From the NCBI GenBank assembly GCA_020629135.1, contig JAHDDX010000020.1:1-39746 (forward strand): 39,746 bases of DNA. Reading direction: 5' to 3'. The position numbers and the translations under genes were made by a program. Positions 2 to 36,442 of the stretch are shown one piece after another. The notes beneath the pieces are model-generated. The model did not search any database and was not told the origin of the DNA. It saw only the letters and a program-made list of their open reading frames with translations. Source of the DNA: Hellea sp. (GTDB lineage Bacteria > Pseudomonadota > Alphaproteobacteria > Caulobacterales > Maricaulaceae). Each line of letters starts with the position of its first letter. Within the stretch, counting starts at the first letter, position 1.

Positions 2-313
2 TTCTCCGGCCCAGAGAATTTCCTGACGCGTCAACCCTTCCACCGTCACAATGCGGGACGGGTCCAACAAGCCATAAAGCCCGAGCGGGTTAATCGCCCG
101 CACATCCCGCCCCAATCCAATCCAGATCACCGGGCCATGGCTCGCCCCGGCAAAAGCCGCCAGAAAGCCATCCCGGCCCGGCCCGATGACTTCGTGTGTG
201 CAGCCCCGGCGCAAGGACAGGTCCGGACGCACCGATAGCCCGGCCCGTTCGTCCAGCTTCACACGCCCCAGCACAGGCCGAGACAGGCCTTGTATGATCT
301 GATCCATTTGCAT
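2..313 (-). CDS. imuA: ImuA-like SOS mutagenesis protein, N-terminal part (cut by window edge)
   Basis: This reads leftwards out of the window; 104 codons are present from ATG at 313 (a second in-frame ATG is at 307; an in-frame TAA lies just upstream). The text GCTHEVIGPGRDGFLAAFAG followed by GPVIWIG and LYGLLDPSRIVTVEG matches the N-terminal pattern of ImuA, a RecA-like accessory protein. In known alphaproteobacterial imuA-imuB-dnaE2 operons it supports DnaE2/ImuB translesion synthesis. A LexA-type box lies two bases before the first ATG, which supports an SOS gene. The ATP-binding core and the rest of the operon lie outside the window, so the family call rests on the N-terminus and the box. 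Another RecA-like SOS protein is possible. Confidence 0.6.
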   Translation of the reverse strand, partial: MQMDQIIQGLSRPVLGRVKLDERAGLSVRPDLSLRRGCTHEVIGPGRDGFLAAFAGASHGPVIWIGLGRDVRAINPLGLYGLLDPSRIVTVEGLTRQEILWAGE

Positions 314-315
314 AT

Positions 316-330
316 GTTCTTATTTTGTTC
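316..330 (-). promoter_or_regulatory. LexA (SOS) box, GTTC-N7-GTTC
   Basis: GTTC at 316-319 and GTTC at 327-330 are separated by exactly seven bases (TTATTTT). This is the direct-repeat LexA operator known from alphaproteobacteria. It sits immediately before the ATG of the imuA-like gene, so bound LexA would cover the promoter or start region. The second ATG at 307 would leave slightly more room for a ribosome-binding site. The spacing and exact half-sites are seen directly; the repressor is inferred. Confidence 0.8.
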
Positions 331-492
331 TTTCTTAGCGCAAAGAGTCAAGGGTTTAGGAATTTTTTCCTGTGAATGAAATTAGCAAGTCAAATCAATG
401 GAAAATTCCAAAAAATCGTCAGGATACAGAAAAAGTACACAATATAATGTATTTTAATCTGGACGATATTACAGACTCTGTATAAAGCCCGG

Positions 493-643
493 AAATCATC
501 AATTGTGGGGAATTGATCAGGAGTTAAGGACCCAGGTCCAAATACAAATTATCACTTACATTTTGTAGAATACCTCTTTAAAAGAGGTTAGAGCTCGGCA
601 CTACCATTGCGCCCCGTGTAGTCGCCGGGCTCGCTTGTTTTTA
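493..643 (+). ncRNA. Putative structured sRNA, copy 1 of a tandem pair
   Basis: Three hairpins in order are visible. P1: ATCAATT 498-504 pairs with AATTGAT 511-517 around loop GTGGGG. P2: ACCTC 572-576 pairs with GAGGT 584-588. P3: GAGCTCGGC 591-599 pairs with GCCGGGCTC 624-632 (one G-U), enclosing CTAC 601-604 paired with GTAG 618-621 and a 13-base loop containing GCGCCCCGT. A T-rich tract (GCTTGTTTTT) follows, so P3 looks like an intrinsic terminator. A TATAAA at 481-486 could be the -10, placing the start near 493. No open reading frame with a ribosome-binding site is present. The same architecture recurs at 701-867 with compensatory changes. I do not recognise a named RNA family. Confidence 0.55.
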
Positions 644-700
644 CCATAAAAAAATTCATTCAGATAACGTTCACCCAATCGAATGTAACTTTAAATAAGG

Positions 701-867
701 GATCAAATTCGATGTGGGGCACTTCAAATTTGACACGAGCAAATGCTCTAAGGCGATGCCGCAATAGAACATGTTTCAGCATAGCTGGAACCCGAATGCC
801 TCTTTACGGGGCTAGAGCCCGGCCTTCTACCATTGCGCCCCGTGTAGTTGTCGGGCTCGCACTCTTT
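701..867 (+). ncRNA. Putative structured sRNA, copy 2 of a tandem pair
   Basis: This is a diverged copy of the element at 493-643. P1: TCAAATT 703-709 pairs with AATTTGA 727-733, again presenting GTGGGG. P2: GCCTC 798-802 pairs with GGGGC 808-812. P3: GAGCCCGGC 815-823 pairs with GTCGGGCTC 850-858, with CTAC 827-830 / GTAG 844-847 and the same 13-base loop as copy 1. CACTCTTTTG follows the stem. Relative to copy 1, the closing pair of P2 changes from A-U to G-C on both sides, and P3 pairs change between G-U and Watson-Crick, which supports selection on RNA structure. ACGGGGC at 806-812 is also complementary to the loop GCCCCGT, so an alternative fold is possible in this copy only. TTAAATA at 691-697 is a possible -10. 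Confidence 0.55.
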
Positions 868-999
868 TGACATTTCAACAATCTTAAATGACGGTCACAT
901 TCAACCAAACCGCCCAATCATTTACCTTTCGTTAAACTTTATGTTCAGATATTATTCAACTTGGAATTGCTAAAAATACAACCGTTGCAATTTCAGCGT

Positions 1000-1029
1000 T
1001 TAAAATTGTCCGAATATCCGCAATTTTAA
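1000..1029. promoter_or_regulatory. Inverted repeat, probable operator before the LuxR-like gene
   Basis: TTAAAATTG (1000-1008) and CAATTTTAA (1021-1029) are perfect 9-base inverted repeats separated by 12 bases, so the half-site centres are two helical turns apart. The repeat lies about 60 bases before the TTG start at 1090. That geometry suits a dimeric DNA-binding regulator acting on this promoter, although a weak RNA hairpin is also possible. The regulator cannot be named; the motif is not a textbook lux box. Confidence 0.4.
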
Positions 1030-1089
1030 GCACATATTATTGATTGCGCATGACAGGTTTGTATCGGGGAAACAGACTCGGAGCGTCAC

Positions 1090-1641
1090 TTGTATAGTTT
1101 ACAACAAATGGACCAGATGAGTGCCTATGAGCACGCTTGCCAAGAGGCAAACTCAATCTCAAAGCTTGAGCGGGTTATGAAACAAGCCGTTTCAGACGCA
1201 GGCGCCAGAATATACAGCTATCATCATTTATCCCCCACAGAGGAAAGGACACGCTTGACCAGTGCCCTCATCTGTCAATTTGGTTATGATGATGGATGGA
1301 TCAATTATTACAACACGCCACAATTCGTAGAAAAAGATCCGGTTTCATTCCTCGCCTTCGAGCTTAACAGGCCTTACTGGTGGGATGAGGCATTTGACCA
1401 TATCACGGACCGGTTTGAACGCGAAAAGGTTATTGAAGCCATGCAGGTCAGCGGCTTGAAATGCGGGTTATCCCTGCCGGTTTTCATTCCTGGTCAAAAA
1501 AGCGGGTTATCACTACTGGGTTTTCGGGTCGATAAGTCCCGAATTTCGGATGAACTTGTCAGTATTTTACAATGGGCCGGCCAAATCAGCCACCAACGCT
1601 ATCTAGCTTTGTCAGAAACCGAGTACCGTTTAACCGGATAA
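1090..1641 (+). CDS. LuxR-type autoinducer-binding domain protein lacking the HTH domain
   Basis: The 183-residue protein matches the acyl-homoserine-lactone-binding domain of LuxR/TraR regulators. Conserved pocket residues are visible: W70 and Y74 in W-x3-Y, the D83-P84 pair, a tryptophan in YWWDE (97-98) and the glycines of SGLKCGLSLP. Full LuxR proteins run to about 240 residues with a C-terminal GerE-type helix-turn-helix. This one stops at residue 183, where the linker to that domain would begin, and the next gene's stop is at 1646, so no remnant follows. The TTG start is chosen because GGAG at 1080-1083 is spaced six bases before it; ATG 1108 has no such site. It may act as a ligand sink or as a heterodimer partner inhibiting another LuxR, as the truncated TraR paralogue TrlR does. 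That role is inference. Confidence 0.75.
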   Translation: MYSLQQMDQMSAYEHACQEANSISKLERVMKQAVSDAGARIYSYHHLSPTEERTRLTSALICQFGYDDGWINYYNTPQFVEKDPVSFLAFELNRPYWWDEAFDHITDRFEREKVIEAMQVSGLKCGLSLPVFIPGQKSGLSLLGFRVDKSRISDELVSILQWAGQISHQRYLALSETEYRLTG

Positions 1642-1645
1642 CGCC

Positions 1646-3079
1646 TTAATCGTTCACCGTTCGCGGCAATTCCAGAGTTACCTTCAAACCGCCAGTTTTG
1701 GCGCGGCTGAGCTGGAGCGCCCCCTTATAGGCCTTGGCCAGATCATCAACGATCGCCAAACCAAATCCGGTACCCGGTGTAGCTTCGTCCAGACGTGCAC
1801 CACGCTTTAGCGCTTCTTCATAATTAGAGGGGTCCACGCCCGGTCCGTTATCCGCGACGAAAATGACAAAGTCGCTATCGTCCGAGGTAGAAATATGGGT
1901 TCCGATCGAAACTTCAGACTTGGTCCACTTACAGGCATTGTCGAGCAGGTTTCCAATCATTTCTTCCAGATCACGTTTCTCGCCCCGAAACCGCAATCCA
2001 TCCAGAATGTCGACATCGAAATCAATATCCTTATTGCGATAAATGCGCTCCAACGTTCGAACGAGTGACATAACCACTTCGTCCACCGGCGTGCTGACAC
2101 CAATCACCTGACCGCGCGCCGCAGCTCTGGCCCGGCGCAAGTGATGATCAACCTGCCGGCGCATCTCCTCGGATTGACGCGTCACCACGTCAGAGAGTTG
2201 TGACTTAGAGGTTTCGGCCTCGTTTAAAAGAACGGCAATGGGGGTTTTCAAGGCATGGGCCAGATTGGCGACATGGGTTCGAGCCCGTTCAACCACATCG
2301 CTATTATGGCCGATTAATGTATTGAGTTCATCGGCAAGCGGTGCGATTTCTGACGGATATTGACCGTCTACGCGTTCAGAGCGGCCCTGTCGAACATTAG
2401 CGACCTCATTGGTCAGGTCGAACAGGGGTTTCAGGCCGAGACGCACCTGGCTCAATACCCCAAAAATCAACCCGCCCGATAGAAATAACAAGAGCAAGCT
2501 GGCCAGAGCCGCGAAGCGTTTGATCGCTTGATTAGCAGCCGAAACATCCGCCGCCGCAATCATAACTACCGGCGTATTTTCCATGCCCGGCAGAATGACT
2601 GATCGGGCGATGACCCGTAATTGTTCATTACTGTCCCGGTCGGGCCCATTCGCTACCGAACGCAACTCGTCTCCGGGGCTTTTCAATATCGTGGCCGCAT
2701 CTGTAACCGGCAAGGTCAATGTCTCGCCTGCCATAGACCGTGAGGCCTGCAAAACCTTGATCTCACCAGTTTCATCAAGGTTCCCGATCAACCAGTACCG
2801 ACCGGATAATGCACGTTGATAACGCGGATCAATTGGTTCGCTGGACAGGTCAACGGCCCAGTTTCCTTTATCATCAGGGCTGGCCTGAGAGGTCGCAATG
2901 AGAGAGGTTATCGCGCTTTCCAGTGGTTCATCGAAAATACGATAGGTTGAACTGCGATAAAACCAGGTCAGTGCGACAGCGGTTAATGCCAGGATCGGCA
3001 ATACCCACATTACGGCACTGCGAACCAGCCGCCGAACCAGCGACCCGTCATGATGTGTGACCACTTGTGGGTCAGACAT
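1646..3079 (-). CDS. PhoQ-like membrane sensor histidine kinase
   Basis: The 477-residue protein has a membrane segment near residues 22-40, a periplasmic sensor region (about 41-187), a second membrane segment near 188-210, then a HAMP linker. The dimerisation/phosphoacceptor helix carries H275 in AHALKTPIAVL, which is the PhoQ-type H-box. The ATPase domain shows the N box (NLLDNACKW, near 377), G1 (DNGPGV, 410) and G2 (GTGFGLAIV, 436). It would autophosphorylate and pass phosphate to the OmpR-type regulator encoded two bases upstream, whose stop at 3082 nearly abuts this ATG. The ligand cannot be read from sequence; divalent cations or antimicrobial peptides would be the PhoQ precedent. It converges on the LuxR-like gene with four bases between stops. 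Confidence 0.85.
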   Translation of the reverse strand: MSDPQVVTHHDGSLVRRLVRSAVMWVLPILALTAVALTWFYRSSTYRIFDEPLESAITSLIATSQASPDDKGNWAVDLSSEPIDPRYQRALSGRYWLIGNLDETGEIKVLQASRSMAGETLTLPVTDAATILKSPGDELRSVANGPDRDSNEQLRVIARSVILPGMENTPVVMIAAADVSAANQAIKRFAALASLLLLFLSGGLIFGVLSQVRLGLKPLFDLTNEVANVRQGRSERVDGQYPSEIAPLADELNTLIGHNSDVVERARTHVANLAHALKTPIAVLLNEAETSKSQLSDVVTRQSEEMRRQVDHHLRRARAAARGQVIGVSTPVDEVVMSLVRTLERIYRNKDIDFDVDILDGLRFRGEKRDLEEMIGNLLDNACKWTKSEVSIGTHISTSDDSDFVIFVADNGPGVDPSNYEEALKRGARLDEATPGTGFGLAIVDDLAKAYKGALQLSRAKTGGLKVTLELPRTVND

Positions 3080-3081
3080 GG

Positions 3082-3762
3082 CTATTTTTTATTATTTTCA
3101 GCGGCAGGATCGAGCAGACGGTATCCCAGACCCCGCACCGTTTCTATCCGGTCCGTTCCGATTTTGCGGCGTAAACGCCCGACAAAAACTTCAATCGTGT
3201 TTGAATCCCGGTCAAAGTCCTGATCATAAATATGTTCAACCAATTCGGTTCGAGAAATCACTCGCCCCCGATGCATGGCGAGATAAGACAAGAGACGAAA
3301 CTCATGAGACGTCAATTTGATCGGCATCCCGTCAACGAAAGCCCGTGCCGCGCGATTATCGACCATAAGGCCACCGACTTCAATTGTATCGGTCGTATGA
3401 CCGGCGGCTCGGCGTAGCAAAGCCCGAAGACGCGCGAGGAGCTCTTCCGTGTGAAACGGTTTGGTCAGGTAATCATCCGCACCGGCGTCAAAGCCAGCGA
3501 CCTTTTCGCTCCATTGATCACGGGCTGTTAAAATCAATACCGGGAAGGTTTTGCCATCCGCTCGCCATTTCTGCAAAACACTGACGCCGTCAATAACCGG
3601 GAGGCCAAGATCCAGCACAACCGCGTCATAAGGTTCAGTGTCACCCAGGAAATGACCCTCTTCGCCGTCATTGGCAACATCAACGGCATAACCCATATCC
3701 TTGAGAACCTCGCCAAGCTGGCGGCTGAGATCAGGATCATCTTCGACGATTAGTACACGCAT
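3082..3762 (-). CDS. OmpR/PhoP-family response regulator
   Basis: This is a 226-residue two-domain regulator of the usual length. The receiver domain carries the acidic pair near D8-D9, the phosphoacceptor D51 in VVLDLGLP, and the conserved lysine in DDYLTKPF. The C-terminal winged helix contains LTSHEFRLLSYLAMHRGRVISR and ends in VRGLGYRL, typical of OmpR DNA-binding domains. It is the middle gene of a PepSY-regulator-kinase operon and should be phosphorylated by the kinase that follows. Its ribosome-binding site (GAGAGG) lies within the 3' arm of a 9-base-pair hairpin that starts right after the PepSY stop codon, which suggests that its translation is coupled to that of the PepSY gene. Confidence 0.88.
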   Translation of the reverse strand: MRVLIVEDDPDLSRQLGEVLKDMGYAVDVANDGEEGHFLGDTEPYDAVVLDLGLPVIDGVSVLQKWRADGKTFPVLILTARDQWSEKVAGFDAGADDYLTKPFHTEELLARLRALLRRAAGHTTDTIEVGGLMVDNRAARAFVDGMPIKLTSHEFRLLSYLAMHRGRVISRTELVEHIYDQDFDRDSNTIEVFVGRLRRKIGTDRIETVRGLGYRLLDPAAENNKK

Positions 3763-3763
3763 T

Positions 3764-3792
3764 ATAACCTCTCTCTAATTATTAGAGGTTAT
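3764..3792 (-). promoter_or_regulatory. Intercistronic hairpin covering the response-regulator ribosome-binding site
   Basis: On the minus-strand transcript, ATAACCTCT directly follows the TAG of the PepSY gene and pairs perfectly with AGAGGTTAT, which contains the AGAGG Shine-Dalgarno sequence. One base separates the hairpin from the ATG at 3762. The loop is 11 bases. A ribosome finishing the PepSY gene would open the hairpin, so translational coupling is the simplest reading. A DNA operator cannot be excluded. Confidence 0.5.
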
Positions 3793-4140
3793 CTATCGGA
3801 CACGACCGGTCGCCGCGTCAATAAAAACATCAACAACGCGACCGTCACGGCGGATCAGGCGAACCCGATAAGTACCGCCATTTAACACAATATCGACAAC
3901 TTCTGCGCCCGGAACCCGGCGCATAGCGATAGATTTTGCTTCACTGGCGGAAATTTTACGCTGAGCCCATTGCGGCAGCGTTGTACGTTCAGTTGGCATA
4001 TAGCTTTGGGAAACACCGGAAAAAGCCCCAAATGGGTCCTTTTTACGCTTTTTACCCGAATCAGCCTGCGCTGGCGTTGCGGCCAAAACCGCAGCTAAAA
4101 CCACGCTGCTTATCACTGATATGTGCTTTAGTTTTTTCAT
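3793..4140 (-). CDS. Secreted PepSY-domain protein
   Basis: This 115-residue protein has a signal peptide (positive MKKLKH, hydrophobic stretch, cleavage likely after TPAQA at residue 26). A basic linker KKRKKDP follows, then a C-terminal PepSY-like fold: ISASEAKSIAMRRVPGAEVVDIVL, then YRVRLIRRDGRVVDVFIDAATGRV. PepSY proteins are small periplasmic domains often encoded next to two-component systems or peptidases, where they are thought to inhibit or sense. It is the first gene of the operon with the OmpR-type regulator and PhoQ-like kinase, so it may modulate the kinase's periplasmic domain; that is inferred from position. A direct repeat upstream may be the operon's autoregulatory site. Confidence 0.75.
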   Translation of the reverse strand: MKKLKHISVISSVVLAAVLAATPAQADSGKKRKKDPFGAFSGVSQSYMPTERTTLPQWAQRKISASEAKSIAMRRVPGAEVVDIVLNGGTYRVRLIRRDGRVVDVFIDAATGRVR

Positions 4141-4165: not shown

Positions 4166-4195
4166 CCTGAACGAAATCTGAATATCGAGTTCAGG
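4166..4195 (-). promoter_or_regulatory. Candidate autoregulatory box upstream of the PepSY two-component operon
   Basis: CTGAAC (4167-4172) and CTGAAT (4178-4183) form a direct repeat with an 11-base period, the arrangement bound by PhoP/OmpR-type dimers. CCTGAAC (4166-4172) also forms an inverted repeat with GTTCAGG (4189-4195). The site is 25-55 bases before the PepSY ATG. A TTAGAT between box and gene could be a -10, but it would put the transcript start very close to the ATG, so promoter placement is uncertain. Confidence 0.35.
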
Positions 4196-35931: not shown

Positions 35932-36007
35932 GCTATTCAGCGCAGTTTCATTTATGATTTGCTAAATCTTTAACAGCTAGACTGTTCTAAACATTCTCGA
36001 GGATAAC

Positions 36008-36442
36008 ATGCGGCGTCAATCTCTTCTTATTTCAACGGTCTTGGTTGCGGCTTTGGGTTTGTCAGCCTGTGGCGTCGCTAAGACGACAGCCAAAGTTGCG
36101 ACCTTACCAGTCAAAGCAACGGTCAAAACGGGTGAAGTCGCCGGAAAAGGTGTCTATCATACGGGTAAAGGCGTGTATCATACGGGTAAATTTGCCGGTG
36201 AAGCCGCTTATGCGACAGGTAAAGCCGTCTACTATGTCGGATCCGTTCCTGTAGAGATTACGGATCGGGCTTTGGATACGACAACCAAAGTCCTAACGGT
36301 TACGACTCAGGCCGTCGACTTGGCCGGTAAAACCGTGGTCTATGCCAAACAAATCCAGGCGGCTGATCTTGAGGTTGAACTCGAACGCATCAAACTTATG
36401 CGTAACGTCATTCGGGTTTTTGTGGACATTGCTCAAATCTGA
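36008..36442 (+). CDS. Small lipoprotein with GVYHTGK-type repeats
   Basis: The 144-residue lipoprotein has the signal MRRQSLLISTVLVAALGLSAC with lipobox LSAC, lipidated C21. A short repetitive section follows (VKTGEVAGK, then GVYHTGK twice in tandem, FAGEAAYATGK and AVYYVG), giving a Gly-x-Tyr-x-x-Gly-Lys rhythm about every seven residues. The C-terminal part is helical (LDLAGKTVVYAK and ELERIKLMRNVIRVFVDI). The role is unknown; such proteins are usually anchored at the outer membrane. It lies 76 bases after the MoxR operon and probably has its own promoter. Confidence 0.7.
   Translation: MRRQSLLISTVLVAALGLSACGVAKTTAKVATLPVKATVKTGEVAGKGVYHTGKGVYHTGKFAGEAAYATGKAVYYVGSVPVEITDRALDTTTKVLTVTTQAVDLAGKTVVYAKQIQAADLEVELERIKLMRNVIRVFVDIAQI

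Follow-up and report, generated by a model that had tools for sequence, protein, structure and literature searches.

A probable small RNA family with an invariant C-rich loop, predicted to belong to a PhoP/PhoQ-like regulon, in Hellea and related bacteria

INTRODUCTION

Control of small RNAs (sRNAs) by PhoP-like two-component systems is best known from enterobacteria. In Salmonella, PhoP binds two hexamers in direct repeat, 5 nt apart, and can do its work from a site 12 nt ahead of the -10 element (PMC3335776). The closest alphaproteobacterial systems come from Caulobacter. GsrN of Caulobacter crescentus has an exposed C-rich loop that pairs with the G-rich leader of katG (PMC5869019), while ChvR, from the same species, is controlled by a two-component system and pairs via stem-loops (PMC6237742). 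The alpha-r8 siblings SisA-D have in common a C-rich pairing stretch that is opposed by a G/A-rich stem-loop of the sponge RNA CrfA (PMC12559287).

Here, we examine a 39,746-nt stretch of Hellea sp. DNA (assembly GCA_020629135.1, contig JAHDDX010000020.1, positions 1 to 39,746), which as a whole we call the window. A sequence-only reading had proposed that two tandem RNA elements near its left end are sRNAs that pair with targets through a C-rich loop, and had likened them to the Qrr RNAs of quorum sensing. We compared these elements with their relatives in other genomes and asked which parts of that proposal hold.

RESULTS

Two paralogous structured elements lie in tandem

Two paralogous structured elements occupy approximately positions 498-642 and 703-868 of the window, both on the plus strand and both presenting the same 13-nt loop, CATTGCGCCCCGT, closed by CTAC and GTAG. 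Each consists of three hairpins, of which the 5' one presents GTGGGG in its loop, the middle one is short, and the 3' one bears the CATTGCGCCCCGT loop on a long stem. Direct reading of the coordinates confirmed this layout, which the sequence-only reading had described.

Copy 1 opens with the hairpin ATCAATT-GTGGGG-AATTGAT (498-517), whose loop we call a G-loop, and continues with the hairpin ACCTCTTTAAAAGAGGT (572-588), which aligns with the first hairpin of the wider family. Its terminator-like C-loop hairpin (591-632), which shows covariation, pairs the arms GAGCTCGGC (591-599) and GCCGGGCTC (624-632), with the closing CTAC (601-604) and GTAG (618-621) flanking the loop that we propose as the seed (605-617); TTGTTTTT follows at 635-642. 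The family covariance model matches this copy at 568-637 with 63.9 bits. Copy 2 is preceded by a PhoP-box-like direct repeat, ATTCAGATAACGTTCA (658-673), and, 12 nt past it, by a -10-like TAACTT (686-691), which together form a putative promoter. Its 5' hairpin (703-733) presents a GTGGGGC G-loop, the arms TCAAATT (703-709) and AATTTGA (727-733) enclosing GTGGGG at 714-719. The hairpin GCCTCTTTACGGGGC (798-812) again aligns with the family's first hairpin, and the C-loop hairpin (815-858; model match 794-863, 57.5 bits) has the arms GAGCCCGGC (815-823) and GTCGGGCTC (850-858), the closing CTAC (827-830) and GTAG (844-847), the loop at 831-843 and, behind it, TCTTTT (863-868).

Folded singly, the two window copies were only moderately better than shuffled sequences (z scores of -2.37 and -1.94); the comparison with relatives was decisive.

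The structure covaries and the loop core is invariant

A search for the loop pattern in 61 genomes, with up to two mismatches allowed, found it in eight. All eight belong to the window's genus, which counts 10 members. This search yielded 18 genus copies, including a third copy in the window's own genome on contig C45. These copies include eight pairs of tandem siblings, the window pair counted, so the tandem arrangement noted earlier is a recurrent one. We built an alignment of 40 copies from 32 sources by adding 22 loci from other genera, fetched out of the 31 other-genus genomes with a covariance model match.

For the structure named, 91.2% of cells were paired in the 18 genus copies versus 80.2% in shuffles, and 36 cells were doubly changed versus 11.1. 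In the 40 family copies, 92.7% of cells were paired versus 70.8% in shuffles and 33-49% when the structure was slid, and 153 cells were doubly changed versus 43.7; since the alignment was fitted to the structure, the shuffles ignore relatedness and the loop aids detection, all of these figures lean in favor of the structure. The first short hairpin was the weakest part, with 76.5% pairing in both alignments, while the loop-closing stem varied in a compensatory manner (CTAC/GTAG, TTAC/GTAA, CTTC/GAAG and CTGC/GCAG). The loop core GCGCCCCG was unchanged in 40/40 aligned copies, an invariance that is partly ascertained because the loop drives detection.

The family core thus has two hairpins, a short one and, 3' of it, one with a long stem and the C-rich loop; in several copies a T-rich tail comes next. 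This combination of conserved structure and an invariant unpaired stretch is that expected of a trans-acting base-pairing sRNA, and the covariation in both alignments supports the earlier suggestion that selection has acted on the RNA structure and its fixed loop.

Relatives occur within one bacterial family

At E<=0.05, the covariance model (R1) matched 40 of 137 same-family genomes, spread over 7 of 19 genera, with the weakest of these matches uncertain; homologues with covarying stems, for which the sequence-only reading had advised a search, are thus present in related genomes. An order-wide search matched 23 of 398 genomes, all in the same family except G049 (E=0.0027), which we judged a chance match, the fetched stretch being without GCGCCCCG. 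In a class-wide search of 385 genomes, the window's own genome alone matched (1/385). A match in G004 (E=0.0446) was also ascribed to chance, because no promoter box of the kind described below occurs there. A scan of named genomes for CCATTGCGCCCCGYG returned at least 117 stretches, mostly from unrelated groups, and the best R1 match in 80 of those at least 117 stretches, on a Nocardia contig (E=0.0035), was likewise taken as chance.

Several matches stand outside the 40 counted copies. These are the uncertain G009:C95 and G006:C132 (both without a box) and G073 (boxed), the boxed G137, G136, G131, G129 and second G035 copy, and the unboxed G083, G094, G085 and G088. Opposite-strand matches of L207 and L013 (E=0.0051) were excluded by a stricter cut-off. 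At a contig end (L001:1-25, G000:C6), we also observed GCGCCCCGTGTAG without the remainder of the element, which is either a cut copy or chance.

The Rfam 15 covariance models gave no matches at their gathering scores in the window and 12 related loci, and a permissive threshold brought up no related family; a TD-2 match at 932-1035 was under its cut-off and outside both elements. Our search of the literature for the loop sequence, related sRNAs and regulators returned nothing on this sRNA family among the entries listed. On this comparative evidence, we regard this sRNA family, known in kind but apparently not described before, as very probably real; its members would be small regulatory RNAs that share one unvarying C-rich loop.

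A promoter-like box is shared with a PhoP/PhoQ-like operon

A direct repeat such as GTTTAGGTTACGTTCA precedes the canonical copies. The pattern TTYA-N7-TTYA occurs upstream of 27 of the 40 copies (17/18 in the genus, window copy 1 being the exception, and 10/22 elsewhere), and in 23 of the 40 (13/18 and 10/22, respectively) a TA lies exactly 12 nt on, an arrangement we call box-12-TA. No EcfG (GGAAC-N15-18-CGTT), ChvI or sigma-54 (TGGCAC-N5-TTGC) pattern was found upstream of any of the 40 copies. Both the 5-nt gap and the 12-nt distance are the values given for Salmonella PhoP boxes (PMC3335776).

We drew the box pattern from genus sequences, and therefore only the other genera and the operon described below provide independent tests of it. 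Genus-wide, box-12-TA had 48 matches versus 13 for the reversed pattern; without 12 sRNA and 7 operon sites the comparison was 29 versus 13, and five of the 29 belong to a second sRNA-like element. Within the window there were four matches, versus a Markov mean of 0.28 and a maximum of 3. The bare box without the TA was not specific (62 matches versus 47 reversed in 37 genomes; at two mismatches in the window, 40 versus 31.9 expected, with 5 of 100 shuffles as high).

One of the window's boxes, ATTCAGATTTCGTTCA (4168-4183, minus strand, 12 nt before TAGATA), stands ahead of a presumed operon on the minus strand (1646-4140). Its genes encode a PepSY-domain protein (first gene, 3793-4140), an OmpR-type response regulator that we propose as the activator (3082-3762), and a sensor histidine kinase (1646-3079). 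The best NCBIfam model for the kinase was PhoQ (153.8 bits versus a cut-off of 497), and for the regulator it was PmrA, with QseB and PhoP close behind (PhoP, 194.3 bits versus 336); as all of these were below cut-off, we call the system PhoP/PhoQ-like rather than PhoP/PhoQ. We looked for regulator orthologs in 23 distinct genomes (10 from the genus and 13 from other genera, with G004 searched again) and found box-12-TA upstream of the gene in 21/21 genomes where the regulator was found (9/9 genus, 12/12 other-genus). The architecture of a PhoP-type promoter, a direct repeat with an 11-nt period placed 12 nt before TA and ahead of the regulator's own operon, was therefore seen in all 21. In the genus loci, reading placed the PepSY gene between box and regulator; its model match, like that of the kinase, comes from the window alone.

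Closeness of this operon to the sRNA genes was seen in this genome only, and its comparative support as the gene set tied to the sRNA family comes through the shared promoter box. The box could instead belong to another OmpR-type regulator, the PepSY-regulator-kinase operon being merely another of its targets. Several OmpR-type regulators bind direct repeats of this period, and the link drawn here between regulator and box comes from sequence. Nevertheless, when a regulator's operon has the box at this spacing before it in 21/21 genomes, that is a usual sign of autoregulation, and we consider control by another regulator unlikely. We think it probable that a PhoP-like two-component system, itself autoregulated, controls the sRNA in part of the family's range.

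The association varies across that range. The box was absent from 11/11 sRNA loci of genus g9 and from the sRNA of G010, yet the operon was boxed in the six g9 genomes tested and in G010, and control of the sRNA may have changed in these lineages, perhaps to another regulator. A GRTGAC-type motif occurs in 11 of these 12 unboxed loci, by a pattern chosen post hoc. In the g9 loci (L220-L223, L225-L228, L232, L233 and L236), by the same kind of post-hoc pattern, GGTGAC with a TA approximately 15-19 nt on replaces the box in 10/11. G135 has a boxed sRNA and no regulator match at E<=1e-70, G007 (75% complete) has the regulator and no sRNA match, and in G004 a regulator match and a credible sRNA are both lacking.

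Other sites under the box and other window features

We also noted other genes and elements behind the same box. The second sRNA-like element (G000:C24:29604-29683, minus strand; L186, L203 and L269-L271; five genus loci read) consists of box-12-TA, a hairpin-like ACTTGTCGATTTGATGAGTT, then TCTCTCTCTT and a terminator-like hairpin. Its pattern, at up to two mismatches, was present in 15 of 137 family genomes, including 9/10 of the genus, and four loci tested had no Rfam match. Two aquaporin-like genes, L188 (G008:C37) and L205 (G003:C47), of which the one tested belongs to the MIP family, may share the sRNA regulon, since each has an upstream box with TA at 12 nt. Small XRE-type regulator genes lie approximately 130 nt past the box in L179 (G008:C17), L185 (G007:C115) and L189 (G003:C38), with HTH_3 matched in the one tested. 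The fourth box-12-TA of the window (35936-35964) lies approximately 70 nt before an ORF at 36008 that is lipoprotein-like by eye. Separately, GTTCTTATTTTGTTC at window positions 300-345 resembles the alphaproteobacterial LexA box GTTC-N7-GTTC. It lies beside the point where a minus-strand ORF begins at the left end of the window; the part of this ORF within the window had no Pfam match.

The C-rich loop and its possible partners

In a search for targets near start codons, the pattern ACGGGGCG-N2-13-ATG had 183 matches versus 75 for the reversed pattern. At least 14 of these are the antisense strand of the RNA copies themselves and, by eye, no gene recurred near an ATG among the matches listed, so we set this search aside as evidence. 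A loop without a single change in 40/40 copies, and with no supported target, would suit a structured RNA that binds a protein through this loop, as a sponge or scaffold, rather than pairing with mRNA, as well. Nothing we observed hints at a protein partner, however, and pairing by such C-rich loops is known, as that of GsrN pairs with katG (PMC5869019). Protein binding thus seems unlikely to us, and by analogy the sRNA probably acts by pairing through its C-rich loop.

G-rich loops accompany the C-loop. Behind the core, 12/18 genus copies have a hairpin that carries CGGGGG at its top and had 18 doubly changed cells versus 5.7 in shuffles. GGGG occurs within 100 nt downstream in 7/10 boxed other-genus copies, two of which (G020 and G144) show TTTCGGGGGAAAG; of the other-genus copies that lack the box, none of 12 has it. 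The two window copies carry their G-loop 5' instead of 3'. In the 12 other genus copies with box-12-TA, the box is just 64-68 nt ahead of the loop match, a spacing too short for a 5' GTGGGG hairpin. It therefore seems that the window copies have acquired this hairpin in addition. The "middle stem" of the sequence-only reading corresponds to the family's first hairpin.

Computed for free strands, pairing of the C-loop with these G-loops and with the GTGGGG loops of the window gave -8.6 to -12.3 kcal/mol, values that are suggestive only, because any C4 and G4 would pair. A possible though doubtful extension is that the sRNA antagonizes itself. Each long transcript would carry, besides the C-rich seed loop, a G-rich loop complementary to it, and a kissing complex between the two would hide the seed; transcripts that end at the C-loop hairpin or lack the G-loop would have it free. 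Tandem siblings with and without the G-loop could then serve as agonist and built-in sponge within one two-component regulon.

Canonical copies stand downstream of a nitroreductase-like gene

We took the longest same-strand open frame ending 40-600 nt 5' of each copy and judged its C-terminal pattern by eye. A common C-terminus was present in 22/22 fetched other-genus loci, ending 100-194 nt before the loop core, and in 14/18 genus copies, at 82-328 nt. The four genus copies without such a frame are two on G006:C64 (none in the stretch examined) and the two window copies. The frame was a nitroreductase by Pfam in both of two tested. The C45 copy of the window's own genome is flanked on one side by the nitroreductase-like gene and on the other by a gene for an acyl-CoA dehydrogenase, beyond which a Rid-family gene is found. 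Canonical copies of the sRNA thus stand downstream of a nitroreductase-like gene and, as those copies (C45 included) occupy that position, the simplest account of the window pair is that it is a relocated, diverged duplicate.

Most copies being just 3' of this gene on the same strand, with a terminator-like hairpin, one could read the element as a cis-acting terminator or attenuator of the adjacent gene instead of a separate transcript. A scan of window positions 320-1100 found no terminator and no plus-strand promoter, and the T-rich tails were judged by eye. Against a cis role, a promoter-like box lies upstream of 27/40 copies (none for window copy 1), copies occur in tandem, a further hairpin with a T-rich tail lies behind 12/18 genus copies, and the window copies adjoin other genes. 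Taken together, these features make a cis-acting element improbable.

The LuxR-like gene is a local neighbor

The LuxR-like gene beside the window pair encodes a lone autoinducer-binding domain; no HTH matched. In nine other genus genomes, we found no match to it at E<=1e-8 in six and 25-26% identity in three, and two of these three matches contain internal stops. In those genomes, the sRNA lies 3' of a nitroreductase-like gene. The LuxR-like gene has its own box, GTTCAGATATTATTCA (943-958, plus strand; TA at 971, 12 nt on), and may for this reason belong to the same regulon in this genome. The CGGGG at 1065-1069, once suggested as a target of the loop, carries little weight, as this 5-mer is expected approximately 0.05 times per 60 nt in the window. 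That these are tandem Qrr-like sRNAs of a quorum-sensing circuit beside a LuxR-type receptor, for which the position in this one genome and the box at 943-958 could speak, is highly improbable given that synteny speaks against it, no HTH matched and the sigma-54 pattern was absent in 40/40 copies. Of the mechanism put forward in the sequence-only reading, then, the sRNA part stands and the quorum-sensing part falls.

DISCUSSION

The explanation we favor, and consider likely as a whole, is that the two window elements arose by duplication, have diverged, and represent a new family of trans-acting sRNAs, which would belong to a PhoP/PhoQ-like regulon and pair with G-rich mRNA sites via their C-rich loop. 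The response regulator would activate the sRNA as well as its own operon. Through its C-rich loop, the sRNA would then pair with envelope-related mRNAs at G-rich sites, most likely where ribosomes bind, and so repress or modulate them. More tentatively, a complementary G-rich loop, in the downstream CGGGGG hairpin of many copies or at the 5' GUGGGG of the window copies, might pair with the C-loop and tune its availability. Our results define an sRNA family for a little-studied bacterial group, with a predicted regulator, binding site and seed.

Several described sRNAs resemble this family in part. Like GsrN, it is an alphaproteobacterial sRNA with an exposed C-rich loop suited to a G-rich leader. 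However, the C-rich loop of GsrN is in its 5' part, while here it is in the second, terminator-like hairpin of the core, behind another hairpin, and GsrN is under sigma-EcfG (PMC5869019), whose pattern had 0/40 upstream matches here in its strict and relaxed forms alike. ChvR, which is under a two-component system and pairs via stem-loops, resembles what we predict here, but chvR is termed specific to C. crescentus (PMC6237742), and the ChvI consensus TTGC-N3-GCAA, called putative in its source (PMC9731502), was absent upstream in 40/40 copies here. The Qrr RNAs differ in their sigma-54 pattern, of which the strict form was sought here. SisA-D and CrfA set a C-rich stretch against a G/A-rich stem-loop, as may happen here, although the common stretch of SisA-D is single-stranded UUUCCUCCCU and their sponge is a separate RNA, whereas here the G-loop is in or beside the same element (PMC12559287).

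The PhoP-activated enterobacterial sRNAs, PinT among them, were compared in sequence through Rfam alone, with 0 matches. The half sites of enterobacterial PhoP promoters are (T/G)GTTTA, while those seen here are TTYA/TTCA, and the regulator is below the PhoP cut-off. In layout, however, PhoP-activated promoters of Salmonella resemble what we find here, with a direct-repeat box whose halves are 5 nt apart and which works at a distance of 12 nt from the -10 (PMC3335776). If our explanation is right, PhoP-like two-component control of sRNAs has a counterpart in these bacteria, where another conserved sRNA-like element also stands behind this box.
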